From positions 1 through 28,854 of the forward strand of contig JAFZDJ010000018.1 of NCBI GenBank assembly GCA_017561265.1: a DNA stretch of 28,854 nt, given 5' to 3'. The notes beneath the pieces were generated by a model that was not told the DNA's origin, did not search any database, and worked only from the letters and a program-made list of their open reading frames with translations. Position numbers and translations under genes: made by a program. Source of the DNA: Bacteroidales bacterium. GTDB taxonomy: Bacteria > Bacteroidota > Bacteroidia > Bacteroidales > UBA932. Below are positions 2,216 through 28,854 of the stretch, piece by piece; position 1 is the stretch's first letter; each line of letters begins with the position of its first letter.

Positions 2216-2231
2216 AATGCTGAAGTGATAA

Positions 2232-2720
2232 AAAAATTGGGCTGAGGAACTTGATTCTCTTCTCTTATTTATTAATGACTGGAAGGATTGTTATTTAAAG
2301 GAGCAATTAGGTGATACTGAACCTGCTAACAGAACAAAAGAGCCACCAATGTTCTCAATAAAGGATATGTCAACTATTGTACAGAATGTGCTTATATTAA
2401 AAGAATTACACATCCTTTTTCCTTGGAAAAAATTAGCAATTGGATTATCATCATGGGACAAATTCTCCCAAGAATATACATCGCCAGTGAAGATGTTGGA
2501 GCAACGTGCACCATTTTTGCACAACTTTGTTATGCACTATTTTCCTGATGTCTATATCTTTGGTGTAAGTGCTCAGGGTGATGAATACGTAGAAGATGAG
2601 GAAGCACAAAGCAAGCTATTGGAGAAAACAGAGAATGGTACGCGTGCTTTTATTGTTGATAAAGATGGAGTAAAGTCATATGATTTGACGTTACCTCTTA
2701 ATTTTTTAATTTCAGATTGA
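2232..2720 (+). pseudogene. C-terminal remnant of a TRAFAC-like GTPase (double-GTPase type)
   Basis: The frame is open from just after two stops (TGA 2226-2228, TAA 2229-2231) to TGA at 2718-2720. Coding sequence appears to begin well before the first ATG (2349), with WAEELDSLLLFINDWKD, so a start at 2349 would be arbitrary. Visible features are KKLAIGLSSWDKF, which I read as the strand plus a G4-like S/T-x-x-D guanine-recognition motif, and FPDVYIFGVSAQGDEY, in the position of a G5-like strand. This matches the C-terminal part of the TRAFAC-clade GTPases that accompany GAP1 proteins in predicted NTP-dependent conflict systems. P-loop, G2 and G3 are absent, so it cannot be an active GTPase. 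Its stop is 2 bp before the GAP1 ATG, as in a coupled operon. The identification leans on that neighbour. Confidence 0.6.
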
Positions 2721-2722
2721 TT

Positions 2723-4688: not shown

Positions 4689-4744
4689 TATAGAGCAGAT
4701 AGCGCAAATCCACATTAGATAAGATTTGTTCAAATAACTGCATT

Positions 4745-5746: not shown

Positions 5747-6118
5747 AGTATTATAATGCTAATTAGTCAATAAAAATCATTGCTAATCATTACTGATTAT
5801 CGCTTAAAAATCGTACCTTTGCATTAGAAATCATTTGGAACGCAAATGCGGTAAGAGGCTGAATAAGAATCACTTCAATTTGGTTTCTACCGAAACTAGA
5901 AAATGAGCTTGAAAAGCGCGGTACAACGCGTATATCGAAATCGATGATTATCAGTACGATGAATTTGTGAGTATTTTCCGTGTCATTGTAAAAATGTAAG
6001 TTGTACCGATTAAAAGGCTAAAACGCTTTCAATCAATAGTGTAAATGTGTTTTGCATCGGAAATTAAAGATTTATTGAATCAACATCCGTTTATATCAGC
6101 AATCAGATCACCGGTTAT
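5747..6118. other. Gene-poor stretch with a possible promoter
   Basis: There is no intact gene in these ~370 bp. TACCTTTG at 5814-5821 matches the Bacteroidales -7 consensus TAnnTTTG on the plus strand, without a clear -33 partner. Downstream of it the sequence looks like broken coding DNA rather than typical spacer (see the remnant at 5913-5999). The rest, about 6000-6118, shows nothing I can identify. Confidence 0.35.
5913..5999 (+). pseudogene. Possible 3' remnant of a lost gene
   Basis: The frame ending in TAA at 5997-5999 reads IEIDDYQYDEFVSIFRVIVKM at its end, which has the composition of a real protein C-terminus. It is open only back to a TGA at 5910-5912. Just upstream, a different frame reads FLPKLENELEKRG, so one indel near 5911-5921 would merge the two. 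No start codon or family is recognisable. This could also be chance. Confidence 0.22.
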
Positions 6119-6153
6119 ATAAAAAAGAGAAGCCTGGGATTGAGTCAGGCTTC
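6119..6153 (-). terminator. Rho-independent terminator of the hypothetical gene at 6180-6602
   Basis: GAAGCCTG (6129-6136) and CAGGCTTC (6146-6153) form a perfect 8-bp stem with a 9-nt loop. On the minus strand the stem is followed by TCTTTTTT, the expected U-tract. It lies 27 bp after the stop codon of the minus-strand gene. The plus strand has no comparable T-run, so it works best leftward. Confidence 0.8.
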
Positions 6154-6179
6154 ATTTGGCCGTATGTCCTTTTCATGAT

Positions 6180-6602
6180 TCAGCTAAGCGGCTTTCCATC
6201 CGGGCCAAATGACAATGTCGGAATCGAGTCCAGATTAATTCCACGGGCTGCCATGCTGCGGGTCATCATATCCATCATGACCGCTTCAAGAGTCCGTTCA
6301 TCATTTGTCAGTTCACCGATATGTATTCCAAAGCTTTCTATTCTATGGTCGATTTTATTGGTCAACATATATATGCTGTTGGCCAGTTCATCTGCATACT
6401 TACGTGCCTCCTGTACATCTTTACAAAATATTACCGACTCCAGACCTGTAGGAAAGGATGCATATCCTTTTAAGACCACACGTGTTTTTGCACTGGCTTT
6501 TGCCGTTGCCTCAAACAGAAAATTCTCCCCTTCGAAATTCGCCGGAAAAAGCGGAGTGTCATCAATTGTCTTGATCGACACAATAAAATGTCTTCTGGTC
6601 AT
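6180..6602 (-). CDS. Small hypothetical protein (140 aa)
   Basis: I do not recognise a named family. The protein is 140 residues and soluble-looking, with no signal peptide or membrane segment. It starts MTRRHFIVSIKTID and has a central helical part (residues about 60-90, with VQEARKYADELANSIYMLTN). It ends in a Pro/Gly-rich tail, SFGPDGKPLS. It is probably a real, expressed gene: it has a well-spaced Bacteroidales promoter (6664-6694) and a clean terminator (6119-6153), so it is a single-gene unit. It sits between the broken accessory DNA and the toxin-antitoxin operon and may be an original host gene or another islet passenger. Function unknown. Confidence 0.7.
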   Translation of the reverse strand: MTRRHFIVSIKTIDDTPLFPANFEGENFLFEATAKASAKTRVVLKGYASFPTGLESVIFCKDVQEARKYADELANSIYMLTNKIDHRIESFGIHIGELTNDERTLEAVMMDMMTRSMAARGINLDSIPTLSFGPDGKPLS

Positions 6603-6663
6603 AATTTTATCATTTATTAAACAACTTCACTGAGGAAATGGATTCCTCACCTTCAACATGAGG

Positions 6664-6694
6664 CAAAAGTAGAGAGGATATTTGGAAAACCAAA
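6664..6694 (-). promoter_or_regulatory. Bacteroidales promoter of the hypothetical gene at 6180-6602
   Basis: On the minus strand TTTG (6694-6691) and TACTTTTG (6671-6664) are separated by exactly 19 bp, matching the Bacteroidales -33/-7 pattern TTTG-N19-21-TAnnTTTG. This is the best-formed promoter in the window. It predicts a 5' leader of roughly 50 nt. Confidence 0.75.
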
Positions 6695-6886
6695 CAGCGT
6701 AACCTATTGTATTTCAGCAAGTTTTTCACTAAATAAAATAAGGACTCACACTAAAGAACTATTTTCTATATTTATATATATAATAAATATATATACTAGT
6801 ATAAGTATTATATGGTACCCATGGCAGAGTGGTCATAGTGTCACGAACAGCTGCGGGCTTTCTCATGCATATTACCTCCCAAAAAT

Positions 6887-6935
6887 CCGGAAAATGTGAA
6901 AATTCGCCTTTAAAATAGCCGGATTATGTGAAAAT
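6887..6935. repeat. Pair of 17-bp direct repeats upstream of hipB
   Basis: CCGGAAAATGTGAAAAT (6887-6903) and CCGGATTATGTGAAAAT (6919-6935) match at 15 of 17 positions and are spaced 32 bp start to start, about three helical turns. They lie about 115 bp upstream of the hipB start. They could be a regulator-binding pair or the scar of a lost element. Confidence 0.6.
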
Positions 6936-7022
6936 GGTTTAGCAAACTACACTCGTTCGGGTATAATTTATAATAAAAGACATCATTTTATATTCGATAT
7001 GATATAATTTCATTAAAATTGC

Positions 7023-7044
7023 TATATTTGCATCAGATAAGATG
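7023..7044 (+). promoter_or_regulatory. Probable promoter and operator of the hipB-hipS-hipT operon
   Basis: TATATTTG (7023-7030) matches the TAnnTTTG -7 element and lies 21 bp before the hipB ATG. The predicted transcript start falls in a small inverted repeat, CATC-AGATAA-GATG (7031-7044), well placed for autorepression by HipB. More AT-rich short symmetries lie at about 6981-7005. No clear -33 element is visible. HipB autorepression is inferred from the family. Confidence 0.45.
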
Positions 7045-7051
7045 TAGTTTT

Positions 7052-7270
7052 ATGAAATCATTACTGTCTGCAACACTAAAAACACTCCGTAAAGAATACG
7101 GACTGACACAGGAAGATCTCGCCCTCAAATGCGGTGTAGGTCTTAACTTCGTGCGTCAGCTTGAGCAGGGAAAACCTACTCTCAGAATGGATAAAGTTAA
7201 CCAGGTGCTTGCCATGTTCGGTTACGAATTGGCACCCGTAAGATCGGAAGAACTCAATGAAAAGAGCTGA
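7052..7270 (+). CDS. hipB: HipB-like antitoxin / XRE-family repressor
   Basis: The protein has 72 residues when started at ATG 7052. An upstream TTG at 7019 would read through the promoter and is rejected. A helix-turn-helix covers nearly the whole protein: LRKEYGLTQEDLALKCGVG (helices 1-2), then LNFVRQLEQGKPTLRMDKVNQVLAMFGYEL (recognition helix and dimer part). This is the classic HipB form. In known hip modules HipB represses its own promoter and helps neutralise the kinase. It overlaps the next gene by 14 bp, which implies translational coupling. It is the first gene of a three-gene B-S-T operon. Confidence 0.88.
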   Translation: MKSLLSATLKTLRKEYGLTQEDLALKCGVGLNFVRQLEQGKPTLRMDKVNQVLAMFGYELAPVRSEELNEKS

Positions 7271-7577
7271 AGTATACTACAAGAATAGCCTGGCCGGAAT
7301 CTTAGCAGAAACCGATGCAGGATACGAGTTCTGCTACATCAAGGATTATCTTGAAAGCAAGAATGCCGAACCGGTGAGTCTTACGTTCCCATTGACTGAT
7401 AAGCCATATCATTCAAATGTGTTGTTTCCATTCTTCGACGGACTCATTCCAGAAGGATGGCTCCTTGATGTTGCACTCAGGAATACCGACATAAGTGACC
7501 TTGACCGAATGTCTTTGCTCTTGCTCTGCTGCAAGGATTGTATCGGCGCTGTGAGTGTTGTACCAATAAAAGAATAG
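7257..7577 (+). CDS. HipS-like protein: free-standing HipA N-terminal domain
   Basis: The 106 residues correspond to the N-terminal domain of HipA ('couple_hipA'), with YYKNSLAGILAETDAGYEFCYI, LTFPLTDKPYHSNVLFPFFDGLIPEGWLL and a C-terminal LLCCKDCIGAVSVVP. In E. coli K-12 HipA this domain is fused to the kinase. Here it ends at TAG 7575-7577, 5 bp before the separate kinase gene. This is the layout of HipBST systems, in which HipS acts as antitoxin to the short kinase HipT. The reading frame is clean and the next gene has its own start and its own N-terminal motif, so this is a natural split and not a frameshift. Confidence 0.85.
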   Translation: MKRAEVYYKNSLAGILAETDAGYEFCYIKDYLESKNAEPVSLTFPLTDKPYHSNVLFPFFDGLIPEGWLLDVALRNTDISDLDRMSLLLLCCKDCIGAVSVVPIKE

Positions 7578-7582
7578 AAGCC

Positions 7583-8518
7583 ATGAGTAAATGCCTATAC
7601 TGTTATAAAGAGCTTGCAGACGGCGAAGTGGACTTCCACAAAGGATGTTGCAAAAAGTTTTTCGGGATACCTAAAGCTCCCGAACTACCCTACTCTCTAG
7701 ATGAGCTTGACACATTGGCTGCCCAAGTTATCCAATCACAGACAACACTGACCGGTGTTCAGGCTAAGCTCTCTCTTCACCTAGATAGACACGATGGATC
7801 AAAGAGACTTACAATCGTTGGTCTCTGGGGCGACTACATCTTCAAACCACAGACACAGTCATACAAGACTCTGCCCGAGAATGAAGACCTGACAATGCAC
7901 TTGGCAGAAATCGCCAAAATCAAAGTCGTTCCTCATACATTGATCCGTCTCAAGGATGGCACACTCGGATATCTGACCAAAAGAATCGACCGTTCTGCAG
8001 ATGGTGATAAAATTCCGATGGAGGATATGTGTCAGCTCACCGAAAGACAGACTGAGTATAAATACAAGAGTTCATACGAACAGATTGCAAAGGTCATAGC
8101 GAAATACTCCTACGCACCACTTCTAGATCTTACAGACTTCTATGAACAGGTATTCTTCAGCTGGCTCGTGGGAAACAACAACATGCATCTAAAGAATTTC
8201 TCACTCTATGCACCAAAAGGCAAATGGGGTCTCACACCAGCGTATGACCTATTGAATGTAACTTTGGTTAATCCTAAAGATGATGAAGAGCTAGCTCTTA
8301 CTCTCAACGCAAGAAAGAAACACATCAAGAAAGCAGACTTCGTAAAGGCAATGGAAACATCAGGCATTGCGCCAAAGGTCTTCGAGAACATTGTCGCAAA
8401 ATACCAGAAACTCCTTCCAAAGTTCAATGAAGTTATCGACATGTCTTTTCTTGATGAGGAAGACAAAGAGACATACAAACAGAGCATCGCATCAAGGCTA
8501 GAGAGGTTGGACAGATAA
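7583..8518 (+). CDS. HipT/HipA-like kinase domain protein with Asn at the catalytic Asp position
   Basis: The protein has 311 residues with ATG 7583 as start, 5 bp after hipS. It begins with a small putative zinc knuckle: Cys4, Cys7, His19, Cys22. The HipA kinase core follows: Gly-rich loop TLTGVQAKL (55-63), ATP-binding Lys88 in YIFKP, the catalytic loop GNNNMHLKNF (197-206) and the metal-binding AYD with Asp222. HipA kinases phosphorylate translation factors (GltX for HipA, TrpS for E. coli HipT). Aligned to E. coli HipA (Asp309, Asn314, Asp332), the catalytic Asp is Asn200 here (codon AAC at 8180-8182), while Asn205 and Asp222 are retained with matching spacing. The kinase is therefore predicted to be weak or dead unless this subfamily works differently. 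The rest of the protein is intact. Confidence 0.85.
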   Translation: MSKCLYCYKELADGEVDFHKGCCKKFFGIPKAPELPYSLDELDTLAAQVIQSQTTLTGVQAKLSLHLDRHDGSKRLTIVGLWGDYIFKPQTQSYKTLPENEDLTMHLAEIAKIKVVPHTLIRLKDGTLGYLTKRIDRSADGDKIPMEDMCQLTERQTEYKYKSSYEQIAKVIAKYSYAPLLDLTDFYEQVFFSWLVGNNNMHLKNFSLYAPKGKWGLTPAYDLLNVTLVNPKDDEELALTLNARKKHIKKADFVKAMETSGIAPKVFENIVAKYQKLLPKFNEVIDMSFLDEEDKETYKQSIASRLERLDR

Positions 8519-14324: not shown

Positions 14325-15734
14325 ATGGATAAGACAGAGAACAAAAAGGAGATTACGGACATTTTCGGATCAAAGGAAATGAGGGAACCGGCTCCATCAG
14401 AATTCATTCCGAAACATAAGACTGCTGCAGATATAGCCTACCAGATAGTCAAGGATGAGACATTCCCGCAGACACAGCCAAGATTGAACCTTGCGACATT
14501 CGTGACTACATACATGGATGAATATGGCACGAGACTCATGAACGAGGCAGTAGGCATAAATTATATAGATGAAACGGAATATCCGAGAGTGGCCGTGATG
14601 TGCGGTCGTTGCATCAATATGGTTGCAAACATGTGGAACACGCCTGAGAAACATGAATGGAAGACCGGTGCAGTGGGAATCGGATCATCTGAAGCATGTA
14701 TGCTGGGTGGAGTTGCCGCATGGCTCCGATGGCGCGAAAAGAGAAAAAAAGAAGGAAAGCCGTATGACAGGCCTAATCTGGTCATGAGCACGGCTTATCA
14801 GGTGGTATGGGAAAAGTTCTGCCAATTGTGGCAGATTGAAATGAGAACAGTGCCGATCACGCGGAAGCACACAACCCTCGATGTCGAAAAAGCTATAAGT
14901 ATGTGCGATGAGAACACAATATGCATTGTCCCTATTGCCGGAGTGACATGGACGGGCATGAACGATGACATCGAAGGACTGAACAACGCCCTAGAAGAAT
15001 ATAACAGAAAGACAGGATATGACATCCCTATTCATGTGGATGCTGCTTCAGGAGGATTCATCCTGCCGTTCCTCGACCCTGACAAGAAATGGGACTTCAG
15101 GTTGAAATGGGTATTCTCAATATCAACTTCAGGTCATAAATACGGTCTCGTATATCCCGGACTGGGATGGGTAATCTGGCGAGACAAAACATATCTTCCT
15201 AAAGACATGTCATTCAGCGTCAATTATCTGGGAGCCAACATCACACAGGTCGGTCTGAACTTCTCACGTCCAGCAGCCCAGATACTGGCACAGTACTATA
15301 ACTTCATACATCTTGGAGTGAGCGGATATAAGGAAATCCATACAAATTCGATGGAGATAGCGGAATACTGTCACAAGGCCATAGGAAAGATGCACTGTTT
15401 CGAGAATTATTCGGACAAATTGGAAAATCCGCTATTCGTATGGTACATGAAACCGGAATACGACGAAAAGGCCAACTGGACACTGTTTGACCTTCAGGAC
15501 AAACTCATGCAAAGCGGATGGATGGTGCCGGCATATACGATGCCGAAAGACATCGAGGACATGGTCGTAATGAGAATCGTTGTGCGTCAGGGCATGTCAC
15601 GCGACATGGCTGACATGCTGATAAATGACATCAGAAATGCAGTGAAGGAGCTGGAAAAGCTGGAATACCCTACTCCGACCCGTATTGCCGCACGCAACAG
15701 CGAAAAGCAGAAAGGAAAGGTATATACTCATTAA
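14325..15734 (+). CDS. gadB: Glutamate decarboxylase
   Basis: The protein has 469 residues, the normal GadA/GadB length (E. coli 466). PLP-enzyme features are HVDAASGGF at residues 237-245 with Asp239, and SISTSGHKYG with the PLP-binding Lys272. The substrate-proximal TFVTTYMDEYG (58-68) and GSSEACMLGG (120-129) match GadB. The C-terminus ends KVYTH, comparable to the E. coli tail whose His closes the active site at neutral pH. The cytoplasmic enzyme converts glutamate to GABA plus CO2, consuming a proton. gadC follows after 10 bp, so the two form the glutamate-dependent acid-resistance operon. The upstream region is rich in inverted repeats, which suggests controlled expression. Confidence 0.96.
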   Translation: MDKTENKKEITDIFGSKEMREPAPSEFIPKHKTAADIAYQIVKDETFPQTQPRLNLATFVTTYMDEYGTRLMNEAVGINYIDETEYPRVAVMCGRCINMVANMWNTPEKHEWKTGAVGIGSSEACMLGGVAAWLRWREKRKKEGKPYDRPNLVMSTAYQVVWEKFCQLWQIEMRTVPITRKHTTLDVEKAISMCDENTICIVPIAGVTWTGMNDDIEGLNNALEEYNRKTGYDIPIHVDAASGGFILPFLDPDKKWDFRLKWVFSISTSGHKYGLVYPGLGWVIWRDKTYLPKDMSFSVNYLGANITQVGLNFSRPAAQILAQYYNFIHLGVSGYKEIHTNSMEIAEYCHKAIGKMHCFENYSDKLENPLFVWYMKPEYDEKANWTLFDLQDKLMQSGWMVPAYTMPKDIEDMVVMRIVVRQGMSRDMADMLINDIRNAVKELEKLEYPTPTRIAARNSEKQKGKVYTH

Positions 15735-15744
15735 CTGATAAAAC

Positions 15745-17205
15745 ATGAAAACGAACAATACAAATACCGGAAAAGGATTCAAATTCAGCGTAGCGACACT
15801 AGCCATAATGAACATAACAGCAGTGGTGAGCTTGCGAGGATTGCCGGCTGAAGCGGTCTATGGTCCTTCATCGGCTTTCTACTATCTGTTTGCGGCAATA
15901 GTCTTCCTGATCCCTACAGCTATGGTAGCAGCGGAGCTTGCCGCCATGTTTTCTGACAAGCAGGGAGGAGTCTTCCGATGGGTCGGAGAAGCATTCGGTC
16001 CTCGCACGGGCTTTCTTGCAATATGGCTTCAATGGATCGAATCTACAATATGGTATCCTACCGTGCTGACTTTCGGAGCAGTATCATTCGCATTCATCGG
16101 AATGAACGGAGCAGCGGACGCAGCTCTTGCTTCCAACAAGATATTCACGCTTGTTACTGTATTGGCTATATACTGGATTGCAACATTCATCGCCTTGAAA
16201 GGTCTCGGATGGGTCGGCAAGATAAGCAAAATAGGCGGACTGGTCGGAACAATAATCCCGGCAGGATTACTTATATTATTGGGTATCATCTACATAGCAA
16301 CAGGTGGCCAGAATCATATGGACATGTCGCAAGGTTTTTTCCCAGACCTGACCAAATTCAACAATCTCGTTCTGGCCAGCAGCATCTTCCTGTTCTATGC
16401 AGGTATGGAAATGATGGGTGTGCATGTGATGGAGGTAAATGATCCGTCGCGCAACTACCCTAAGGCGATTATAATAGGTTCACTGGCTACGGTAGCGATC
16501 TTCGTATTGGGAACATTCGCCCTCGGCTTCATCATCCCGGCAAAAGAAATCAACCTGACACAGTCGCTTCTGATCGGATTTGACAATTATTTCAGACATT
16601 TCCATATTTCATGGGCGGGACCGGTGATTGCCGTAGCACTGATGTTCGGAGTGCTGGCCAGCGTGCTTACATGGGTCGCAGGTCCGTCTAAAGGTATATT
16701 CACTGTGGGAAAGGCCGGATATCTGCCTCCGTTCTTCCAGAAGACCAACAGCAACGGAGTACAGAGAAACATTCTTCTCGTACAGGGAGGAATAGTAACC
16801 CTTCTTTCGCTCCTGTTTGTGGTCATGCCGTCGGTGCAGTCGTTCTATCAGATTCTGTCGCAGCTCACGATACTGCTGTACCTCATAATGTATATGCTGA
16901 TGTTCGCAGCAGCCATCGTGCTCAGATATAAGATGAAGGACACGCCACGTCCGTTCCGCCTGGGCAAGGGAAACATGGTCATGTGGATTCTAGGAATAGT
17001 CGGTTTTGCAGGTTCCCTTCTGGCTTTTGTTCTCAGCTTCGTTCCTCCGGGACAGATACAGACAGGCAGCAGCACCGTATGGTATTCAGTGCTTATCATC
17101 GGATGCGTGGTGATGGTAGTAATCCCATATATCATTTATGCCATGAGAAAGCCATCATGGAGAGATCCGGATGCAGAATTCGCCCCATTCCATTGGGAGA
17201 AATAA
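15745..17205 (+). CDS. gadC: Glutamate:GABA antiporter
   Basis: The protein has 486 residues and about 12 hydrophobic segments, an APC-superfamily inner-membrane exchanger. The N-terminus shows ATLAIMNITAVVSLRGLPAEA (TM1 region) and GGVFRWVGEAFGPRTGFLAIWLQW, as in GadC. Later AGPSKGIFTVGKAGYLPPFFQKTN is the conserved loop after TM8. It imports glutamate and exports the GABA made by GadB. The short C-terminus (YAMRKPSWRDPDAEFAPFHWEK) is where E. coli GadC has its pH-sensing plug. Position 10 bp after gadB makes the role clear. Hairpins right after the stop (17208-17238) probably end the transcript. Confidence 0.94.
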   Translation: MKTNNTNTGKGFKFSVATLAIMNITAVVSLRGLPAEAVYGPSSAFYYLFAAIVFLIPTAMVAAELAAMFSDKQGGVFRWVGEAFGPRTGFLAIWLQWIESTIWYPTVLTFGAVSFAFIGMNGAADAALASNKIFTLVTVLAIYWIATFIALKGLGWVGKISKIGGLVGTIIPAGLLILLGIIYIATGGQNHMDMSQGFFPDLTKFNNLVLASSIFLFYAGMEMMGVHVMEVNDPSRNYPKAIIIGSLATVAIFVLGTFALGFIIPAKEINLTQSLLIGFDNYFRHFHISWAGPVIAVALMFGVLASVLTWVAGPSKGIFTVGKAGYLPPFFQKTNSNGVQRNILLVQGGIVTLLSLLFVVMPSVQSFYQILSQLTILLYLIMYMLMFAAAIVLRYKMKDTPRPFRLGKGNMVMWILGIVGFAGSLLAFVLSFVPPGQIQTGSSTVWYSVLIIGCVVMVVIPYIIYAMRKPSWRDPDAEFAPFHWEK

Positions 17206-17334: not shown

Positions 17335-18807
17335 ATGACAAAGAAACTGACCCTTACACTCCTTCTAACGCTTACTGTTCTTTCAACAGGCAGTGCGCAG
17401 GAATATATGACGCTTTCCGATGCCATCCGCACCGCACGAACACAATCTGTGGAAGCGCTTGAGGCAAAGCAGGCGTTCATATCTACATATTGGGCATATC
17501 GTTCTTACAAAGCCAGCAGACTTCCTTCTGTATACATGTATGGAAACCTGATGAATTTCGACCGTTCGCTCACTCTTCTGCAGAATCCTGAAGATGGAAC
17601 TCTCAAGTATGTAAGTTCCAACAACCTTCAGAACGGAGCAGGACTTGAAATCAACCAGAACATCACTTTCACAGGAGGTACACTCACGGTCTCATCAGAC
17701 CTTTCGCGCATTGACCAGTTCGGTGGAAACAAAAGCCTGACATGGTATTCAAGGCCTGTCACAGTATCATACTATCAGCCTTTGTTTACCTACAATCAGT
17801 TCAAGTGGGACAAGAAGATCGAGCCTAAGGCCTATGAAAAAGGAAAGAGGGACTATCTCGGATCAATGGAAGCGGTCACCATCAATGTAGTATATGCCTA
17901 CCACAATCTCCTTCTCGCAAAGATGAACAACGAGATAAGCCAAAGCAACTTCGAGAATTCGGGCAACATGCTGAAGATCGCGAAGGAAAGGCTTCAGCTC
18001 GGCGATGTAACCAAGGCAGATTATCTCCAGCTCGAGCTTCGAATGCTCAACGACAGCATAGCGATCAATGAAACCGAAGTAATGGTACGCGAAGCACAGA
18101 TGACACTTAACTCATTACTTGGATTTGACGAATCATTCGAAGTCGTCCCTGCTCTGGAAGAGGAACTCCCTGACATTCAGATGGATTATGACCTGGTAAT
18201 GTCCAAGTCACTCGAGAACTCGAGTTTCAGCCTCAACAATGAACTCAGCCTCCTCAATGCAGAATCAGCTGTGGCTCGGGCAAAGGCCTCACGCGGTTTC
18301 TCGTTCTCACTTAATGCACGCTTCGGAATGTCACAGACCGGTCCTGAATTTCCGCAGGCATACAAGGATCTCCTGGATCAGGAAGTGGTGGGAGTGACAT
18401 TCAGCATTCCGATCTTCGACTGGGGGCTTGGAAAAGGAAAGGTCCAGAAAGCGAAGGCAGCACAGGAAGTGGTCAAGGCACAGGTCCAGCAGTCCGAGAA
18501 TGACTACAGAAGACAGGTCTTCACCGCCGTAAGCCAGTTCAACAACCAGCGCCAGCAGTGCATGGTATCGCGTAGAGCAATGAATATCGCAAAAGAAAGA
18601 TACGAGCTTACAATGCACAGATTCAGGGAAGGAAATGCAACTGTAACAGATCTGAACATGGCTCAGACTGAAAACGACAGCGCATTCAGACAATATATCA
18701 GTGATGTCAGCAATTTCTGGGCATTCTACTATCAGCTCCGTCAATGTACTCTTTATGATTTCATCAAAGGAGAAGATTTGGAAATAGATGTAAATGAGAT
18801 GATATAA
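17335..18807 (+). CDS. TolC-family outer membrane efflux protein
   Basis: The protein has 490 residues, with a signal peptide (about 1-21, ending GSAQ). The mature part begins YMTLSDAIRTARTQSVEALEAKQAF, the typical TolC repeat start, and has two long helical stretches with regular heptads (for example YELTMHRFREGNATVTDLNMAQTEND near residues 423-448) and GVTFSIPIFDWGLGKGKVQKA near 361-381, matching the OEP family. It would form the trimeric outer-membrane channel of a tripartite exporter. It is first of a plus-strand operon, with the adaptor gene starting 20 bp later. Confidence 0.92.
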   Translation: MTKKLTLTLLLTLTVLSTGSAQEYMTLSDAIRTARTQSVEALEAKQAFISTYWAYRSYKASRLPSVYMYGNLMNFDRSLTLLQNPEDGTLKYVSSNNLQNGAGLEINQNITFTGGTLTVSSDLSRIDQFGGNKSLTWYSRPVTVSYYQPLFTYNQFKWDKKIEPKAYEKGKRDYLGSMEAVTINVVYAYHNLLLAKMNNEISQSNFENSGNMLKIAKERLQLGDVTKADYLQLELRMLNDSIAINETEVMVREAQMTLNSLLGFDESFEVVPALEEELPDIQMDYDLVMSKSLENSSFSLNNELSLLNAESAVARAKASRGFSFSLNARFGMSQTGPEFPQAYKDLLDQEVVGVTFSIPIFDWGLGKGKVQKAKAAQEVVKAQVQQSENDYRRQVFTAVSQFNNQRQQCMVSRRAMNIAKERYELTMHRFREGNATVTDLNMAQTENDSAFRQYISDVSNFWAFYYQLRQCTLYDFIKGEDLEIDVNEMI

Positions 18808-18827: not shown

Positions 18828-20090
18828 ATGGATAAACCTATTGAAAAAAAGAAAGGCATAGCCTTGGTATTCAGCAAGAAAGCACTCCCCTATTGGTTCG
18901 GTGGTTTCATGGCCATATTCATCCTCTGGCTCATCTTCCGTGACGATGCAAGCACTCTGCGTGTAAACGGTGACACGCTTACCATCAACGAGGTCAAGGC
19001 CGGGGAATTCAACGACTACATCCGCATAAGCGGACAGGTCCACCCTATGACCACTATCCAGGTTAGTCCTCGTGAGGCAGGTATCGTCGAGGAAATCGTA
19101 ATCGAGGAAGGAACACAGGTCAAGGCAGGAGATGTGATCATCCGTCTGAGCAACGACGACCTTGACCTCGAGATTCTCAATTCTGAAGCAAATCTCGCAG
19201 AGAAAGAAAATGCGTTGCGAAACACAATGATACAGATGGAACAGGAGAAGATGCAGCTCAGTCTCAACATCCTCGAGCTCCAGACAGAAGTGAAACGCAA
19301 GGGACGTGCCCTCGAATCACAGAAACGCCTTTTCGACGACGGACTTATTGGAAAAGAGGAATACCTCCGTTCTGAAGAAGACTATGTGCTTTTCTGCAAG
19401 AAGCTGGAAGTTACCATTGCAAGAGCAGAGCAGGACAGCATGTACAGAAACGTGCAGATCCAGCAGATGGAGGAAAGCCTCAAGAATATGAAGATCAACA
19501 TGCAGAGGATACGTAAGCGCAAGGACAATCTTGATGTCAAGGCTCCTATTGACGGTGTGTTGGGACTTATAGAAGTGGGGCTCGGCGAGTCGGTCGCAAG
19601 CGGTCGCAAGATAGGTCAGATCAATGCGGAAGGAAGCTATAAGATCGAGGCGCTGGTCGACGAGCATTATATAGACCGTGTATTCGCCGGACTTACAGCG
19701 ACTTTCGAGCGCCAGAACGAGACATATGACGCCGTCATCCGCAAGGTATATCCCGAGGTGCGCAACGGAAAGTTCCAGGCAGACTTCCGGTTCAGCGGTG
19801 ACCAGCCGGCAAATATCCGTACAGGTCAGACTTATTATCTCAACCTGCAGTTAGGCCAGCCTGAGAAGGCCATCCTCATCCCACGCGGCACATTCTATCA
19901 GAAGACCGGCGGCAAATGGATATATGTTGTATCCCCTGAGGGAGGCAAGGCAGTCAAGCGCGAGATCCGCATCGGCCGTCAGAACCCTCAGTTCTACGAA
20001 GTCCTCGAAGGCCTCGAGCCAGGCGAAAAAGTCATCACTTCGGGATATGACAACTTCGGTGATAACGAAGTACTCGCCATCGCACCCTGA
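18828..20090 (+). CDS. HlyD/MacA-like periplasmic adaptor (membrane fusion protein)
   Basis: The protein has 420 residues. One N-terminal membrane anchor (about residues 24-41, GGFMAIFILWLIF) precedes a lipoyl-like half-motif, VSPREAGIVEEIVIEEGTQVKAGDVIIRL (near 78-106). A long coiled-coil hairpin follows, about 110-215, rich in Glu/Lys/Gln. The second lipoyl half is LDVKAPIDGVLG, then come beta-barrel and membrane-proximal domains ending GLEPGEKVITSGYDNF. It links the ABC permease complex in the inner membrane to the TolC-like channel. The TGA stop lies inside a degenerate copy of the operon's hairpin repeat (20088-20123). Confidence 0.92.
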   Translation: MDKPIEKKKGIALVFSKKALPYWFGGFMAIFILWLIFRDDASTLRVNGDTLTINEVKAGEFNDYIRISGQVHPMTTIQVSPREAGIVEEIVIEEGTQVKAGDVIIRLSNDDLDLEILNSEANLAEKENALRNTMIQMEQEKMQLSLNILELQTEVKRKGRALESQKRLFDDGLIGKEEYLRSEEDYVLFCKKLEVTIARAEQDSMYRNVQIQQMEESLKNMKINMQRIRKRKDNLDVKAPIDGVLGLIEVGLGESVASGRKIGQINAEGSYKIEALVDEHYIDRVFAGLTATFERQNETYDAVIRKVYPEVRNGKFQADFRFSGDQPANIRTGQTYYLNLQLGQPEKAILIPRGTFYQKTGGKWIYVVSPEGGKAVKREIRIGRQNPQFYEVLEGLEPGEKVITSGYDNFGDNEVLAIAP

Positions 20091-20123
20091 AACGCCTGCG
20101 TCAGATGGAGCATGCGATTCAAC
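20088..20123. repeat. Hairpin repeat, degenerate copy 1
   Basis: Left arm TGAAACGCCTGC (20088-20099), loop GTCAGATGGA (20100-20109) and right arm GCATGCGATTCAAC (20110-20123). It matches the copy at 28287-28324 with about one change per segment and has the same loop orientation. The first three bases are the stop codon of the adaptor gene. Confidence 0.65.
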
Positions 20124-20164: not shown

Positions 20165-20845
20165 ATGATTACAGTAACAGATCTTTGCAAGGTTTTCCGT
20201 ACAGAGGAAATCGAAACAACAGCACTCAACAAGGTTTCTTTCGAAATCAATGACGGCGAATTCGTGGCCATCATGGGTCCGTCAGGATGCGGCAAGTCAA
20301 CACTCCTTAACATCCTCGGTCTTCTTGACAATCCAACTGACGGAAGCTACAAGCTTCTCGGACAGGAAGTTGCAAAACTCAAGGAAAAGGACCGCACAAA
20401 GTTCCGCAAGGGCAACATCGGCTTCGTGTTCCAGAGCTTCAACCTCATCGACGAGCTCAACGTATATGAGAATGTGGAACTTCCTCTGAAGTATCTCAAT
20501 ATCAGCTCATCAGAACGCAAGCAGCGCGTGACCGAGATGCTCAAGAGAATGAACATCAGCCACAGAGCCCAGCACTTCCCTCAGCAGCTTTCAGGAGGTC
20601 AGCAGCAGCGCGTCGCCATCGCCCGTGCAGTCGTATCAAACCCTAAGCTGATCCTCGCCGATGAGCCTACAGGTAACCTCGACTCGAAGAACGGCAAGGA
20701 AGTCATGGATCTCCTCACAGAACTTAACAAGGAAGGCACAACCATCGTGATGGTGACTCACTCACAGAAGGACGCAGCATGCGCACAGCGCATCGTCAAC
20801 CTCTTCGACGGTCAGATCGTATCAGACGTAAAGAACGAACTTTAA
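20165..20845 (+). CDS. ABC transporter ATP-binding protein (MacB/LolD type)
   Basis: The protein has 226 residues started at ATG 20165. Earlier in-frame starts would run through the hairpin repeat and are not favoured. Walker A is GPSGCGKST at residues 38-46, the Q-loop is [12 protein letters not shown] near 87-98, the signature is LSGGQQQR near 142-149, Walker B is [12 protein letters not shown] near 160-171 and the H-loop is MVTHS. The DEPTGNLDS form is typical of the MacB/LolD/FtsE subfamily that partners FtsX-fold permeases. It energises the permeases encoded directly downstream. A large nested inverted repeat lies between this gene and the first permease. Confidence 0.95.
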
Positions 20846-23446: not shown

Positions 23447-23489
23447 TCTGAAATCTTTGACATATAAACGCAAAATTAAAATATACATA

Positions 23490-25868
23490 ATGAAAAGCTA
23501 CCTGAGATTCCTAGGAAGAAACAAATTGTACACCGCGATTGAGATTGTGGGACTGAGCCTTGCGCTGGCTTTTGTGATCGTATTGAGCTCGTATATCGTG
23601 AACGATATGAGTGTGAACCGTGTCTTGAAAGATACAGATGACATTTATCTGGTTCATAGTGCCGACCGTCCTGATATATTTGATGAAGTGCCGCATTTAT
23701 ATGCTGCGATGCCGGAAATCATCGGTACTTGCGGACTGATCCCACCCCATAACAGTACAACATTATTCCAGGACATCACTACGGCAAGCTGCGGAGAAAA
23801 CAAAATGAATGTGACAATCATGGGTGTGTCAGAAACATTCTTTGATTTCTTCTCATTCCCATTGTCGGAGGGCAATCCGGAAACTGCATTAACATCAAGG
23901 AACAGCGTTGTGTTATCTGAAGCAATGGCAAATACCCTCTTCCCTGATGGCAACGCTCTTGGAAAGGAAATCAATGTATTCGAGAAGAACCCATTTGGGC
24001 AATGGTCAGATGAACCTGCATTGGATTTCGATGTAAACCTGATAGTGACAGGCATTTTCAAGCCTTTCGCAAGGACGGTTTTCAAAGAGCCGGACATGAT
24101 GATGAGGATAGACCTTATTCAGGAGAAGCAGCATGCTATGTTCCAAGGTGGACTTAGAATCCTGGAATTCAGTTTTGTGAAGCTCCGTGAAGGAAACGAT
24201 CCGACGGTTGTCGCTGAAAGTCTGACAAGCGAATTTCTTAAACTGAACACCAAGTATAGACCAGATGTCAAAAAAGAAATCGGCCTGACAGCATTCGATA
24301 AGATCAAACTGCAGGATCCGAATGTATACAGCTATTACTTCGAGAACATAAGACAGGGTAAGCTCTTCGGAATCTATCTGCTTATGTGCATATTCATTAC
24401 AATTGTCTCTCTCCTTGATTATATCGTTCTCACAATAGCATTCAGCAGATTCAGAATCAAGGAGATAGCAACACGTCAGCTTCTTGGAACAGACCGTAAG
24501 GGAGTCATAGGAAGATGTTTTGCAGAGGCGTTGATACTACTTGCTGTCTCATGCGTCTTTGCAATTCTGACCGCTGTTGCATTCAAGAACCCTATCGGGC
24601 AGATCCTTGGTGCAGAGATCAATCCACTTACCCAGCTGAACGAATACCTTATCCTTGCAGAAATCATCGTCTTGATGGTCGCTATCGCCAGTGCAGTACC
24701 TTCATATATACTTTCTTCATACAGCACGATCAATGTGATCAAAGGAGAGGCGAGATACCGCGACAAGGCTGTTTATGGAAAGGGGTTCATCGGACTAGCC
24801 GGTCTTCTCTGCATAGGTGGATTGTCAATCTGTTTTGGTGTAACACGCCAAACAAGGCATATTTTGAACCAACCCTTCGGATACAGTTTCGACAACATAG
24901 TATGTGTCGGGTTCGTTTCCGATCAAAATCGGTTCATCGACGAGCTCGAATCCCTTCCTTTCGTAGATAAAGTCGGCTCATTTCAGACATTGCCTACTTC
25001 GTGGACAATGACAGACCTTACAAGTAATGTCACTAATGACAATGAAAGAATTACATTCATTGACGGAAATACCGCGTACTTTGATATTCTCGGTATAGAA
25101 ATCCTTGAAGACAACGGATCAGGCTCAGCTGATTCTGAGGACGGCAAATGGTATGTATGCAAAAGTTCATATGAGCGTCTTGACGAATATATGACAGATG
25201 GAATGCTGAATCTATGGCAGCCAGCTCCATTGAGCGGCATCGTAAGCGACATAAAGATTGGTCGCGTAAAGGAAAATGCTTATAGTGACTTTGCATTCAT
25301 CAATGTTCGCAATATACCTGAAATGGTTCAGTATGGTATGCCTATTCTGAAAGTTAACATAGATGAACAAAAGGCAAAGAAGATGGTACAGGACTTCTAT
25401 TACAGCAAAGGGTACGACGACACAATGTTCGCTGTCGAGACTTTACGAGAAAAGGTGGAAAGGGACCTTAAGGAAGAAAAGAATATGCTCAAGCTCCTGA
25501 GCGGATTCTCTCTTATCTGCATCCTTATGACCATAATGACCATAGTAGGACTCAGCAGTTATCATAGCAAGACCACCGAGAAGGATAATGCAATCCGCAG
25601 TGTCTTCGGATGCTCAAAGAAAGAGCTCATCAGGAAGATCACACTCGACTTCGTACTTCCCGTAGTGATTTCCGGAGTGGCTGCCATCCCGATCGCCTAT
25701 GTGGTCATCGAACGCTGGCTCGGAGGATACGTCATCCGCACTGACAACTCCCCTATCATCTACGCTGGAGCATTTGCTGTTGTTATCGTCGTGGTCATTG
25801 CAGCGATTCTCCTTCAGGCCCTGCGTATGACGCGCACCAATCCTGCCGAGGCGCTGAAGAAGGAATAG
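23490..25868 (+). CDS. FtsX/MacB-type ABC permease 2
   Basis: The protein has 792 residues from ATG 23490; a TTG 33 bp upstream is less likely, because ATG 23490 gives the same N-terminus as the next two genes. It starts MKSYLRFLGRNKLYTAIEIV with TM1 directly after. The duplicated MacB_PCD-FtsX architecture follows: first periplasmic domain to about residue 280, TM cluster with the FRIKEIATRQLLGTDRKGVI coupling loop, second periplasmic domain (about 460-670), last TM cluster with KTTEKDNAIRSVFGCSKKELI. It ends TRTNPAEALKKE. Its first 89 bp differ from permease 3 at one position only, while the body differs widely. The 3' end lies in the repeated joint described separately. Confidence 0.88.
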   Translation: MKSYLRFLGRNKLYTAIEIVGLSLALAFVIVLSSYIVNDMSVNRVLKDTDDIYLVHSADRPDIFDEVPHLYAAMPEIIGTCGLIPPHNSTTLFQDITTASCGENKMNVTIMGVSETFFDFFSFPLSEGNPETALTSRNSVVLSEAMANTLFPDGNALGKEINVFEKNPFGQWSDEPALDFDVNLIVTGIFKPFARTVFKEPDMMMRIDLIQEKQHAMFQGGLRILEFSFVKLREGNDPTVVAESLTSEFLKLNTKYRPDVKKEIGLTAFDKIKLQDPNVYSYYFENIRQGKLFGIYLLMCIFITIVSLLDYIVLTIAFSRFRIKEIATRQLLGTDRKGVIGRCFAEALILLAVSCVFAILTAVAFKNPIGQILGAEINPLTQLNEYLILAEIIVLMVAIASAVPSYILSSYSTINVIKGEARYRDKAVYGKGFIGLAGLLCIGGLSICFGVTRQTRHILNQPFGYSFDNIVCVGFVSDQNRFIDELESLPFVDKVGSFQTLPTSWTMTDLTSNVTNDNERITFIDGNTAYFDILGIEILEDNGSGSADSEDGKWYVCKSSYERLDEYMTDGMLNLWQPAPLSGIVSDIKIGRVKENAYSDFAFINVRNIPEMVQYGMPILKVNIDEQKAKKMVQDFYYSKGYDDTMFAVETLREKVERDLKEEKNMLKLLSGFSLICILMTIMTIVGLSSYHSKTTEKDNAIRSVFGCSKKELIRKITLDFVLPVVISGVAAIPIAYVVIERWLGGYVIRTDNSPIIYAGAFAVVIVVVIAAILLQALRMTRTNPAEALKKE

Positions 25869-26058
25869 GCATGGCCGCAACGCAAAACGATGAATAACAA
25901 AGACATACGTTGAATCGCCTGCTCCATCTGCCGCAGGCGATTCAACATAAAAGATTAAAAATCAACAACATGAAAAGCTACCTGAGATTCCTAGGAAGAA
26001 ACAAATTGTACACCGCGATTGAGATTGTGGGGCTGAGCCTTGCGCTGGCTTTTGTGAT
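25833..26058 (+). repeat. Permease joint repeat, copy A (permease 2 end to permease 3 start)
   Basis: This stretch covers the last 36 bp of permease 2, the intergenic DNA and the first 89 bp of permease 3. It aligns without gaps to 28211-28436 (both 137 bp from repeat start to the next ATG). Changes are few: single substitutions in the 3' coding end and spacer, the inverted 10-nt loop of the hairpin, three changes in the spacer before the ATG, and several in the 5' coding part. Confidence 0.85.
25909..25946. repeat. Hairpin repeat, copy 2 (perfect 14-bp stem)
   Basis: GTTGAATCGCCTGC (25909-25922) and GCAGGCGATTCAAC (25933-25946) are perfect inverted copies around the loop TCCATCTGCC. The loop is the exact reverse complement of the loop in the copy at 28287-28324. 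The structure lies between permease 2 and permease 3. Confidence 0.9.
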
Positions 26059-28246
26059 ACCATTGATCAATGTGGTGGCTGACAAATACGAGAGATCGCG
26101 TGCACATGAAAGATATGAGGATATATACGCTGTATCATATCTTGGGAACTTGTATACAGAAGTCAATTTCGGAGAATTCCTGAAGGAACGTATTCCTGAG
26201 ATTGAAAGGACAACTTCTGCGATGTTAGGTCCACGAAGCATCATCGACAAGGAATTCTTCTATTTCTTCCCGTTTGAGTTTATCGAAGGTGACGAATCTT
26301 TTCTGGATTCCAGGGAAAATATCGCCGTGTCTGAGAAGTTCGCATCAATGATTGCGGACGGATCTGCCATGGGCAAAGCCGTGAAGATAGAAGACAAGTA
26401 TTACACTGTGGCAGCCGTGTTCAAGAACGACAGGAATGACATTTTGAAAGAATGTGAAATATTGCAGAATATCGCTCCATTCAAGGAACTCAGAGAAAAC
26501 GGAGGCATTTCCAGTGGGGTCACATTCGTATCACTTAGGAATGGATATGATCGCAAGGAAATAGAAAAACGAATCCTTGAGACAGCAGATATATTCAATG
26601 CGGGTGATGAGACTTATCTCAAATATAGGGAAGGGGTATTCAGAGGATTAGTAAGATATGATGAACTGCCGACATGTATCATGAATTACGGCCAGTTCAT
26701 GAAATATCAGCAGGCTTCTATGGCCTTGGTTGGCGTTCTTCTGCTTCTGATTTTCATCACTGCCATCCTCAACTATATCAATCTGAATGTAGCTCTCTCG
26801 ACAACCAGAGCAAAGGAGAATGCAACCAGGAAGCTTGTTGGCTCCACACGTAGTCGCCTGATAATAAGCAATCTATGCGAATCACTGTTACTTACCGCAG
26901 CATGCTTTGTATTCGGCTATCTTTTAAGTGGATATACGGGCAACTTCATCAAAGGTCTGCTTGCAATGACCGAGTTCACAGACTTCTCAGTCAAGCCTGT
27001 ATGGAACATCAGAACCATCGCTGCATCAGTTTCGATCATTCTGATAACCTCAATTGCAGCCGGTCTGGCACCATCACTGGTAGCATCCAGATTCAGTCCT
27101 CTGGACATTACCAAGGGTGATTTCAGACTTCATAGCAAAAGAAGACTCTCAAAATTCTTCATCAGTTTTCAGATGATTCTTTCAGTTGTCCTTCTGTCTG
27201 TCGTGCTTATGGCTGATAAATGCCACCGTGATGCAATGAAGGTCGACTTCAACTGCGACATAGAAGATATGGTTTATATGCGGGTAGCTCCGGAAAATGC
27301 AGCGATAATGTTGTCCAAAGCAGCTGAATGTCCGGAAATATTATCTTGTGGACTGGCATCTCAGGTACCGACCCAGGGCCTAAGTGGTGCTCTGAGCATT
27401 CCTGATGCACCTCAATATCTTTACAGTCATATAGAATGTGACAAAAACGGATTCGAGACATTCGGGTTCGAAATCCTCCAGAAGAACGGCAATGACCTTA
27501 ATGGTTTATGGATTACCACATATACGCAATCATTCATTGAAAAGGATCCTCGTGTTCTTGAACATCTATACAAGGCTACAGGAACAGACCATCTGGCAGG
27601 TATCATCAATGACTTTCCGGGTATGGCACCGCTGGAGGGTAACCTCAGCCCATGTCTTACTGTTGCATCCGTCAAGGAAAAGACCATCAGGACCGGTGTC
27701 ATCTTCAAGGTTGCCGGAGACCATAAGGAAGGACGTGAACTGATACAGAGCCTTTACGACGAAGCACAGATGAACCAGATCGCTCCGGATGCTGATATGG
27801 CTGGTGTAGATAAGGCAAAATACGTTCTCGACATATTTGAGGAAATCACAGCTCCTTTCAGATTGATCATTGATATGATCGGGATAGTAATGGTGCTGGT
27901 CGTCATCATGTCCATGATGGGGCTCATCGGAATGAGCATGCATTTCACGAATGAACGAAAGAACGAAATCGCAGTCAGGAGAATATTCGGAGCAACGGAA
28001 AACGGTGAAGTGATGAGGAATCTTCGCTTCTATATGATCATAACGGGAATCGCATCATTGCTGGGAATATGTGTCGCAGAACTCGTTCGACAGTTCTTCA
28101 TGGAATTCGGAATAAATCCAAAGAATGTATGGTGGATCTATATAGTCGCAGTCATACTCTCCTTTGCGATCTCCCTTGCCTCCGTCCTCTGGCAGACCCT
28201 TCGGGCTGCCCGCACCAACCCTGCCGAGGCGTTGAAGAAGGAATAA
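25970..28246 (+). CDS. FtsX/MacB-type ABC permease 3
   Basis: The protein has 758 residues from ATG 25970; a longer frame from 25910 would translate the hairpin and is rejected. The N-terminus MKSYLRFLGRNKLYTAIEIV and TM1 are as in permease 2. The two periplasmic domains then differ from it. The first FtsX part has TTRAKENATRKLVGSTRSRLI and the last FTNERKNEIAVRRIFGATENGEV, both coupling-loop sequences. It ends ARTNPAEALKKE. The first periplasmic domain looks somewhat shorter than in permease 2. Both its 5' and 3' ends lie in near-identical repeat joints, so the gene is framed like a cassette. FtsX permeases act as dimers. Four different permeases for one ATPase suggest alternative or heterodimeric complexes. 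Confidence 0.88.
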   Translation: MKSYLRFLGRNKLYTAIEIVGLSLALAFVIPLINVVADKYERSRAHERYEDIYAVSYLGNLYTEVNFGEFLKERIPEIERTTSAMLGPRSIIDKEFFYFFPFEFIEGDESFLDSRENIAVSEKFASMIADGSAMGKAVKIEDKYYTVAAVFKNDRNDILKECEILQNIAPFKELRENGGISSGVTFVSLRNGYDRKEIEKRILETADIFNAGDETYLKYREGVFRGLVRYDELPTCIMNYGQFMKYQQASMALVGVLLLLIFITAILNYINLNVALSTTRAKENATRKLVGSTRSRLIISNLCESLLLTAACFVFGYLLSGYTGNFIKGLLAMTEFTDFSVKPVWNIRTIAASVSIILITSIAAGLAPSLVASRFSPLDITKGDFRLHSKRRLSKFFISFQMILSVVLLSVVLMADKCHRDAMKVDFNCDIEDMVYMRVAPENAAIMLSKAAECPEILSCGLASQVPTQGLSGALSIPDAPQYLYSHIECDKNGFETFGFEILQKNGNDLNGLWITTYTQSFIEKDPRVLEHLYKATGTDHLAGIINDFPGMAPLEGNLSPCLTVASVKEKTIRTGVIFKVAGDHKEGRELIQSLYDEAQMNQIAPDADMAGVDKAKYVLDIFEEITAPFRLIIDMIGIVMVLVVIMSMMGLIGMSMHFTNERKNEIAVRRIFGATENGEVMRNLRFYMIITGIASLLGICVAELVRQFFMEFGINPKNVWWIYIVAVILSFAISLASVLWQTLRAARTNPAEALKKE

Positions 28247-28436
28247 GCATGACCGCAACGCAAAACGATGACTAACAAAGACATACGCTGAATCGCCTGC
28301 GGCAGATGGAGCAGGCGATTCAACGCAAGAGATTAAAAATCAACAACATGAAAAGCTACCTGAGATTCCTGTCCAGAAACAAACTGTACACTGCGATCGA
28401 GATTGTGGGACTGAGCCTTGCGCTGGCGTTTGTGAT
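28211..28436 (+). repeat. Permease joint repeat, copy B (permease 3 end to permease 4 start)
   Basis: This is the counterpart of 25833-26058 at the next gene boundary, the same length and alignable without gaps. The 5' coding part of permease 4 has about 8 changes in 89 bp relative to permease 2, so this copy is more diverged than the permease 2/permease 3 starts are from each other. Confidence 0.85.
28287..28324. repeat. Hairpin repeat, copy 3 (loop in opposite orientation)
   Basis: GCTGAATCGCCTGC (28287-28300) and GCAGGCGATTCAAC (28311-28324) form a stem with one mismatch around the loop GGCAGATGGA, the reverse complement of the loop in copy 2. It lies between permease 3 and permease 4. 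Confidence 0.9.
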
Positions 28437-28854
28437 ACCGATGATATGTTTTTATACGAACATTGCCCGGATATCCAAGGGACATGACAACTATGAGAAC
28501 ATCTACAGCCTGTGCGTTGAGCGTGTGCAGGTAAGTTCGCCGGGATTCGGAGACTTCCTGAAGGAGAGAGTGCCTGAAATCGAAAAGGTGACCAGTCCGA
28601 TATTGAACAATGCATGGTATGACATTGAGAATACCAACAGGAAGATTCACTATGTGGACAAGGATTTCTTTTACTTCTTCCCCGCAAAGTTCAGCGTCGG
28701 TGGCATCGACTTTCTGGATACTCCTGACGGAATTGCTGTTTCAAAGGAATTTGCTGACTATCTGGCTAAGGATGGACCTGTAATCGGAAGGGAAATAGAT
28801 TTCAATTGGAACAGATATATTGTAAACGCTGTCTTTGACGAATATGGCAACGGC
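28348..28854 (+). CDS. FtsX/MacB-type ABC permease 4 (3' end beyond the window)
   Basis: The frame is open from ATG 28348 to the window edge, 169 residues. It starts MKSYLRFLSRNKLYTAIEIV, then TM1, then the beginning of the first MacB-type periplasmic domain: DFLKERVPEIEKVTS, FFYFFPAKFSVGG and GIAVSKEFADYLAKDG align well with permease 3 (DFFYFFP and IAVS motifs). It is more like permease 3 than permease 2 in this part, which suggests a tandem duplication. The remaining roughly 600 residues are outside the window. Confidence 0.88.
   Translation, partial: MKSYLRFLSRNKLYTAIEIVGLSLALAFVIPMICFYTNIARISKGHDNYENIYSLCVERVQVSSPGFGDFLKERVPEIEKVTSPILNNAWYDIENTNRKIHYVDKDFFYFFPAKFSVGGIDFLDTPDGIAVSKEFADYLAKDGPVIGREIDFNWNRYIVNAVFDEYGNG

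Follow-up and report, generated by a model that had tools for sequence, protein, structure and literature searches.

The contig JAFZDJ010000018.1 of a Bacteroidales bacterium (assembly GCA_017561265.1; 28,854 nt, in its entirety referred to as the window) contains the left part of an exporter array, in which genes for an outer-membrane channel, a periplasmic adaptor and one ATPase are followed by duplicated FtsX/MacB permeases, all lying head-to-tail on the same strand. From comparison of sequences, we consider it likely that this is an array of exchangeable single-chain permease genes (duplicated FtsX/MacB, YbbP-like) with one ATPase, adaptor and channel, reshuffled at the joints between neighboring genes. 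Recombination at these joints probably reshuffles the exporter set in gut Bacteroidales. In the genomes compared, permeases with unrelated bodies have spacers in common when they belong to one genome, and spacers differ from genome to genome. This pattern holds in part for the first 90 coding bases, which encode the N-terminal helix together with a large part of the first transmembrane helix. Permease bodies are found in other orders, neighborhoods and species, often at a synonymous identity above that of marker genes, and adjacent orthologues can retain order and body though the spacer between them differs. For this type of array, there is good support for same-genome sharing of spacers and for bodies moving from one species to another, and homogenization of the 5′ ends is real but partial.

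Near-identical joints connect permease genes

The first-pass annotation of the window had described two collinear, highly similar joints on either side of permease 3 (P3; 25970..28246), and this was borne out: positions 25833-26058 and 28211-28436 are identical at 202 of 226 bases without a gap. A repeat finder extended the likeness to 84% over 270 nt, on the plus strand as are all array genes and spacer elements described here. Joint 1 (25798..26067) comprises the 3′ end of permease 2 (P2; 23490..25868), a 101-nt spacer and the 5′ end of P3; joint 2 (28176..28445) comprises the 3′ end of P3, a second 101-nt spacer and the 5′ end of permease 4 (P4; 28348..28854), of which the first 169 codons precede the window end. 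The spacers share 89 of 101 bases, and the longest exact run common to both joints is 41 nt. The likeness stops sharply: on the upstream side, 30-nt windows ahead of 25795 agree at 4-14 of their 30 positions, and downstream it falls past ~26060, with a weaker matching stretch beyond (26168-26226 and 28546-28604, 71% of 59 nt).

The 5′ end of P2 with its preceding bases (23478..23586) is a third copy of the joint's 5′ half (93% to 25958-26066), so that the 5′ part occurs three times and the entire joint twice. Over the first 90 coding nt, P2 and P3 agree at 88 positions with an exact run of 62 nt, and P4 agrees with either at 81. The proposal that the bodies between the joints differ strongly held for P2 and P3 (23% protein identity) but less so for P3 and the visible part of P4 (41% over 121 residues). 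The joints are nevertheless more alike than the bodies they connect.

Related arrays vary in number, membership and order

A scan of genome contigs with P3 returned four loci, all from metagenome-assembled genomes (MAGs; yak cecum, goat rectum, water deer cecum and cow), three titled Bacteroidales and the one from cow Bacteroidia. Relatives of P3 at E ≤ 1e-20 occurred in 47 of 101 genomes of the genus group of the related genome G001, and orthologues with at least 66% identity to P3 or at least 70% to P2 were found in 6 and 8 of 400 genomes, respectively. From these we chose a set that, with the window, amounts to 31 array pieces of 24 genomes and contains 94 permeases of at least 450 residues with the 5′ motif. 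The comparison is based on relatives found via P3, with one genome per species. Orthogroups were formed by single linkage at 50%; a prime denotes a permease without the 5′ motif, and unique permeases are written as such.

Arrays in related genomes comprise up to ten or eleven permeases, with varying membership and order. The window reads C'-A-B-I, compared with N-W'-B-A-J-G-unique-X-A-unique in G001, D'-C'-T-N-Z-F-B-A-unique-A in G002, C'-F-B-V'-I-unique-A..A-Y in G302, F'-N-J-P-A-G-X-unique-B-R-A' in G377, D'-C'-A-N-J-F-P-G in G301, B'-A-I in G244 and W'-J-A-K-G-unique in G004. The position directly after the ATPase is usually taken by C' or W', while the remaining permeases are shuffled; the right neighbors of orthogroup A, which contains several subgroups, bear ten labels in 13 cases. 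Permease number and sequence, suspected from the window alone to be variable, are indeed not invariant between species. The equally suggested constancy of the ATPase behind the permeases agrees with a single strong ATPase match per piece in 11 of the 31 array pieces, with 96-99% identity to the window's ATPase in the nearer genomes (G001, G002, G004, G036, G043 and G301) and 81-90% in G037, G046, G073 and G094; a 29% match in G003 was left uncounted.

Several arrays showed further peculiarities. In G043 (L066-L068), the N-terminal and C-terminal pieces of one A-type permease are separated by ~37 kb with genes that resemble a Mu-like prophage, as judged from protein beginnings with no family search. 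Contig 82 of G002 (L013) carries a lone array-type permease directly before a putative two-component gene pair, and the same putative pair (judged by protein beginnings) follows the array in G001, G003, G302 and G393.

Spacers follow the genome while bodies change neighbors

We compared 79 spacers from 22 genomes. Of 173 same-genome pairs of spacers that precede unrelated bodies, 31% reached a score of at least 60, compared with 6% of 115 between-genome orthologue pairs and 1.7% of 2689 unrelated pairs, and the observed mean of same-genome likeness was reached in 0 of 2000 label permutations. The effect was clear in the window, G002, G301, G302, G377, G393 and G030, and in G244, G076 and G042 with one spacer pair each.

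The bodies were set against marker genes (adaptor, UbiE and UbiA), whose synonymous identity was 0.41-0.75 in the listed genome pairs, with means over all pairs of 0.55-0.57. For the same genome pairs, permease bodies ranged from 0.49 to 0.94. Of 45 pairs selected for a protein identity of 75% or more, 40 had a body above every available marker, and the top six reached 0.9 or more, compared with 0.43-0.66 for their markers. This suggests a transfer of permease bodies between species.

Kept neighbors with differing spacers were found for P-A and A-G in G377/G393 and for N-J in G301/G377. Their flanks mostly exceed 90% DNA identity on either side, compared with spacer identities per 60 columns of 0-72% (P-A), 0-32% (A-G) and 32-50% (N-J). 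Where G001 reads W'-B-A-J, G004 reads W'-J; the W' spacer is the same except for one base, and the transition to J in G004 falls inside the initial ~45 coding bases common to B and J. A junction between non-neighboring permeases, which the first-pass annotation had envisaged for the bodies of P2 and P4 in sequencing reads, was thereby found between species and in MAGs.

Coding ends of the permeases

The 5′ counts cover the first 90 coding nt in 17 genomes, with 7 more distant genomes excluded. At least 80 of 90 bases agreed in 23 of 199 same-genome unrelated pairs and in 44 of 2423 different-genome unrelated pairs (permutation 0/2000), while the same- and different-genome means of two body windows used as control were 34.5 vs 34.4 and 32.8 vs 32.4. 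For 88 of 114 orthologue pairs, a same-genome unrelated paralogue was closer in its 5′ end, a count that favors paralogues, of which each genome has several. Among 31 orthologue pairs with bodies at least 88% identical (9 orthogroups; pairs not independent), 5′ synonymous identity was below that of the body in 30, with pooled values of 0.677 and 0.843, and in 14 of the 31 no more than 5% of body windows were as low as the 5′ end. Adaptor and channel genes as control had the lower value at the 5′ end in 3 of 8 pairs (0.594 vs 0.556).

Compared with its orthologues in G001 and G002, P2 has 68-71% body protein identity and a 5′ match of 74/90 to each, and P3 has 82-85% with 70 and 79/90. The P2-type bodies of G001 and G002 mostly share 87-100% DNA identity per 60 columns, which falls at the 5′ joint and across the final ~240 nt. 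In the P2 orthologue of G002 (L007), the DNA of the 3′ end encodes the other C-terminal class in a different frame, and the listed open reading frame (ORF) therefore ends in an unrelated tail; either an event at the joint or a mistake in assembly could account for this. The seven closest relatives of P2 (84-97% identical) lack I19 in 7 of 7 and G9 in 6 of 7 cases, two residues common to P2 and P3 of the window. At the protein level, N-terminal swaps were not apparent among 27 near P3 relatives, with an N-terminal difference rate equal to that of the body (0.022 vs 0.024) and a higher C-terminal rate of 0.065 (292 close pairs of 351). One pair, P0027/P0028, picked from many, has 3 differences in 30 N-terminal residues vs 3 in 699 body residues.

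Points against reshuffling and alternative explanations

Several observations weigh against reshuffling at the joints. The spacer likeness is weak in G001, G004, G037, G040, G043, G186 and G392, and the last 60 nt of the genes showed no genome effect (43.0 vs 42.6 of 60; permutation 651/2000), the likeness of this 3′ part of the joint being explained by protein conservation. The mean 5′ match of orthologue pairs (body ≥60%) is 74.9/90, exceeding the 71.5 of same-genome unrelated pairs and the 73.7 of 58 adjacent same-genome unrelated pairs in all genomes, with unrelated between-genome pairs at 69.7; descent is thus still visible, and homogenization partial. Across all 114 orthologue pairs, 5′ synonymous identity was below that of the body in 56. 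The marker comparison is biased by the use of pairs picked for similar bodies, many with a single marker, and the adaptor used as marker is itself part of the array. In 31 of the 45 pairs the 5′ end also lies above every marker, so incoming DNA may often carry its own 5′ end along. For P3 of the window, synonymous identity to G001, G002 and G302 is 0.62-0.65 (0.65 to G001, 0.62 to G002) with markers at 0.56-0.69; this fits vertical descent, so body movement is seen for this array type but not for P3 itself. Single linkage at 50% makes orthogroup A a mix of subgroups, the four titled genomes are MAGs in which repeats can mislead assembly, and the evidence is a comparison at the level of species.

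Purifying selection alone, acting on protein function, translation start or an RNA element, might keep ends and spacers alike with no recombination. A comparison of 65 relatives, the most distant at 32% identity, shows hardly any variation in the C-terminal RTNPAEALKKE or in most of the 30 N-terminal residues, and the RNA of both window spacers folds better than shuffled sequences (z of -3.7 and -3.6). The 3′ null result and the on average closer orthologue 5′ ends likewise speak for this explanation, so that selection and descent account for part of the likeness. It cannot, however, make spacers alike within a genome yet not between orthologues, nor does it agree with the reduced 5′ synonymous identity of close pairs when set beside the adaptor and channel controls. 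We regard selection as the sole cause as unlikely.

The spacers contain a 32-nt palindromic element, at 25912..25943 in joint 1 and inverted at 28290..28321 in joint 2, the two being exact reverse complements of each other. The element has probably flipped once, perhaps through a hairpin-based event. Its exact pattern in the window occurs in 0 of 77 loci compared. A dispersed palindromic repeat of the repetitive extragenic palindromic (REP) kind, inserted independently between genes, might account for the spacer likeness, and a degenerate third copy was found by repeat comparison in the gap between adaptor and ATPase genes (20093..20116), before the window's ATPase. The palindromic core of the G302 and G002 spacers is likewise present elsewhere in those genomes, including a 108-nt match at 74% outside the G002 array contig. 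The long close matches, by contrast, lie in the array: G302 has four that reach 93 nt or more and another of 76 nt (outside, pieces of at most 77 nt), G002 has eight with a length of 107 nt or more at 83-100%, and in G301 this applies to 5 of 5 matches. A G393 spacer gave seven matches, three in array pieces, two on another contig that was not inspected and two of 40 nt. In the window the likeness runs on into coding sequence, and no likeness of full spacer and 5′ coding sequence was seen at unrelated genes in the 7 genomes searched. On account of the long close matches in the array and the coding likeness we reject independent insertion as the main cause, considering it very unlikely, and regard the palindrome as a REP-like passenger that the spacer carries.

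It is extremely unlikely that faulty assembly produced the order differences and the shared joints, even though, beyond the MAG origin of the four titled genomes, several arrays end at contig ends and pieces of the G004 array lie on more than one contig. Neighbors recur across separate assemblies (B-A in four genomes, F-B in three, N-J, A-G and P-A-G in two each), and the longest exact run common to joints of one array piece is 122 nt. Misjoining at repeats would yield neither differing spacers in kept neighbors nor the contrast of bodies and markers. A recent origin from one permease by tandem duplication, with bodies that diverged rapidly and ends that stayed alike, has next to no chance of being the main cause and is rejected on orthologue identities, since despite the head-to-tail, same-strand genes with shared ends (81-88/90 at the 5′ end) the bodies are old, P2 and P3 being far closer to their G001 and G002 orthologues than to each other.

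Reshuffling at the joints, probably by homologous recombination or gene conversion, is the likely explanation. Crossing over at joints would allow a permease body to be gained, lost or swapped, and conversion would keep the joints alike. Strong protein conservation of both termini would add to this likeness, the conserved termini probably fitting a common ATPase and membrane apparatus. The outcome might be a turnover of exporter recognition behind a constant motor. The cassette-like exchange first proposed from the window agrees in part with the differences between species, namely number, membership and order, a spacer and partly 5′ history unlike that of bodies, the W'-J junction and the bodies exceeding their markers; it does not extend to the 3′ part of the joint, which lacks genome-specific homogenization. 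A further-reaching reading sees a dedicated exporter-diversification locus, in which genome-specific joints, made up of the spacer and often the N-terminal coding segment, serve as landing sites where homologous recombination brings in permease bodies of other gut Bacteroidales, and an ATPase with hardly any variation drives a set of single-chain permeases that changes quickly, possibly also within strain populations; this we put forward tentatively, as possible rather than probable.

Other features of the window

The array begins with a TolC-type outer-membrane channel (17335..18807; Pfam OEP, E 9.6e-41) and an HlyD/MacA-like periplasmic adaptor (18828..20090), whose top NCBIfam model is DarC, under its cut-off. 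The ATPase (20165..20845), the predicted partner of the permeases, is encoded by its own ORF, separate from theirs, as in ten other array pieces; its longest ORF runs from 20105, but we place the likely start at codon 21 because family matches begin there. Permease 1 (P1; 21038..23446, orthogroup C') differs from P2-P4 (orthogroups A, B and I) in its N-terminus. Pfam assigns two FtsX units in one chain to each of P1-P3, accompanied by MacB_PCD in P2 and by MacB_PCD under the cut-off in P3. The closest fold match of the predicted P3 structure is YbbP, and a search of solved structures with the P2 sequence gave a single, not credible match (E 0.45).

A megablast of 25500-28500 against phage records gave no match, and no recombinase gene was found among 20 window ORFs scanned with Pfam, the flanking DNA beyond the window and the other genomes not being searched. 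In the gap between ATPase and P1, 20842-20941 holds a nested inverted repeat with 15-nt arms 70 nt apart and 13-nt arms within. Upstream of the array, a pyridoxal-dependent decarboxylase adjoins an amino-acid permease (14325-17205), a pair reminiscent of acid-resistance loci, and 1004-8518 contains an Eco57I-type methylase-like gene, a double-GTPase match, an ATPase_2 gene and a HipA-like gene.

Implications and comparison with known systems

If reshuffling at the joints is true, these arrays would represent a transporter family evolving by cassette exchange, with fixed motor, adaptor and channel and a changing permease, in which the spacer and N-terminal coding segment double as recombination homology. 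All permeases of one array would then be predicted to use one ATPase, and a natural permease set with a common partner would be useful for asking what duplicated FtsX permeases export. N-terminal and spacer sequences would, in turn, be misleading for finding orthologues in such arrays.

In architecture, the array resembles several known exporters. YbbAP has, like P1-P3, two FtsX units per chain (YbbP) and a separate ATPase gene, but P3 shares 14% sequence identity with YbbP in the aligned part, and here several permeases per ATPase are joined by an adaptor and a channel. The darobactin exporter DarBCD likewise combines a separate ATPase with a long permease and provides the best NCBIfam matches of ATPase and adaptor (DarD and DarC), yet scores fall below the cut-offs (DarD 292.7 of 375 bits, DarC 192 of 450, DarB at most 60 of 700), and the arrays described here differ from it in their number of permeases. 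MacAB-TolC is similar in its adaptor, TolC-type channel and MacB_PCD and FtsX domains. MacB, however, combines a single FtsX unit with a fused ATPase, in contrast to the separate ATPase and duplicated permease of the window, and P1-P3 score 20-24 of the 966 bits required by NCBIfam MacB. The best NCBIfam match of P1-P3 is the similarly duplicated permease ADOP (TIGR03434), again under its cut-off (106-202 of 622 bits).

Among the open-licence literature matches listed, we found no report of recombining FtsX/MacB permease arrays or of such a mechanism in a multi-permease exporter. The mechanism itself resembles one known in kind from the esaG, lpl and tipC arrays, of which lpl consists of lipoprotein genes. 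According to PMC9484751, esaG, lpl and tipC in Firmicutes are tandem, non-identical genes with short blocks of high similarity, between which recombination leads to expansion, deletion and mosaics; esaG and tipC are immunity genes, and esaG events in strains were confirmed by long reads (PMC9484751). The window array likewise consists of tandem, non-identical paralogues with short blocks of high DNA similarity, and copy number, order and membership vary, here between species. The Bacteroidales permeases differ from these genes in their length of ~750-815 residues, in the species level of the evidence and in an often genome-particular spacer type.

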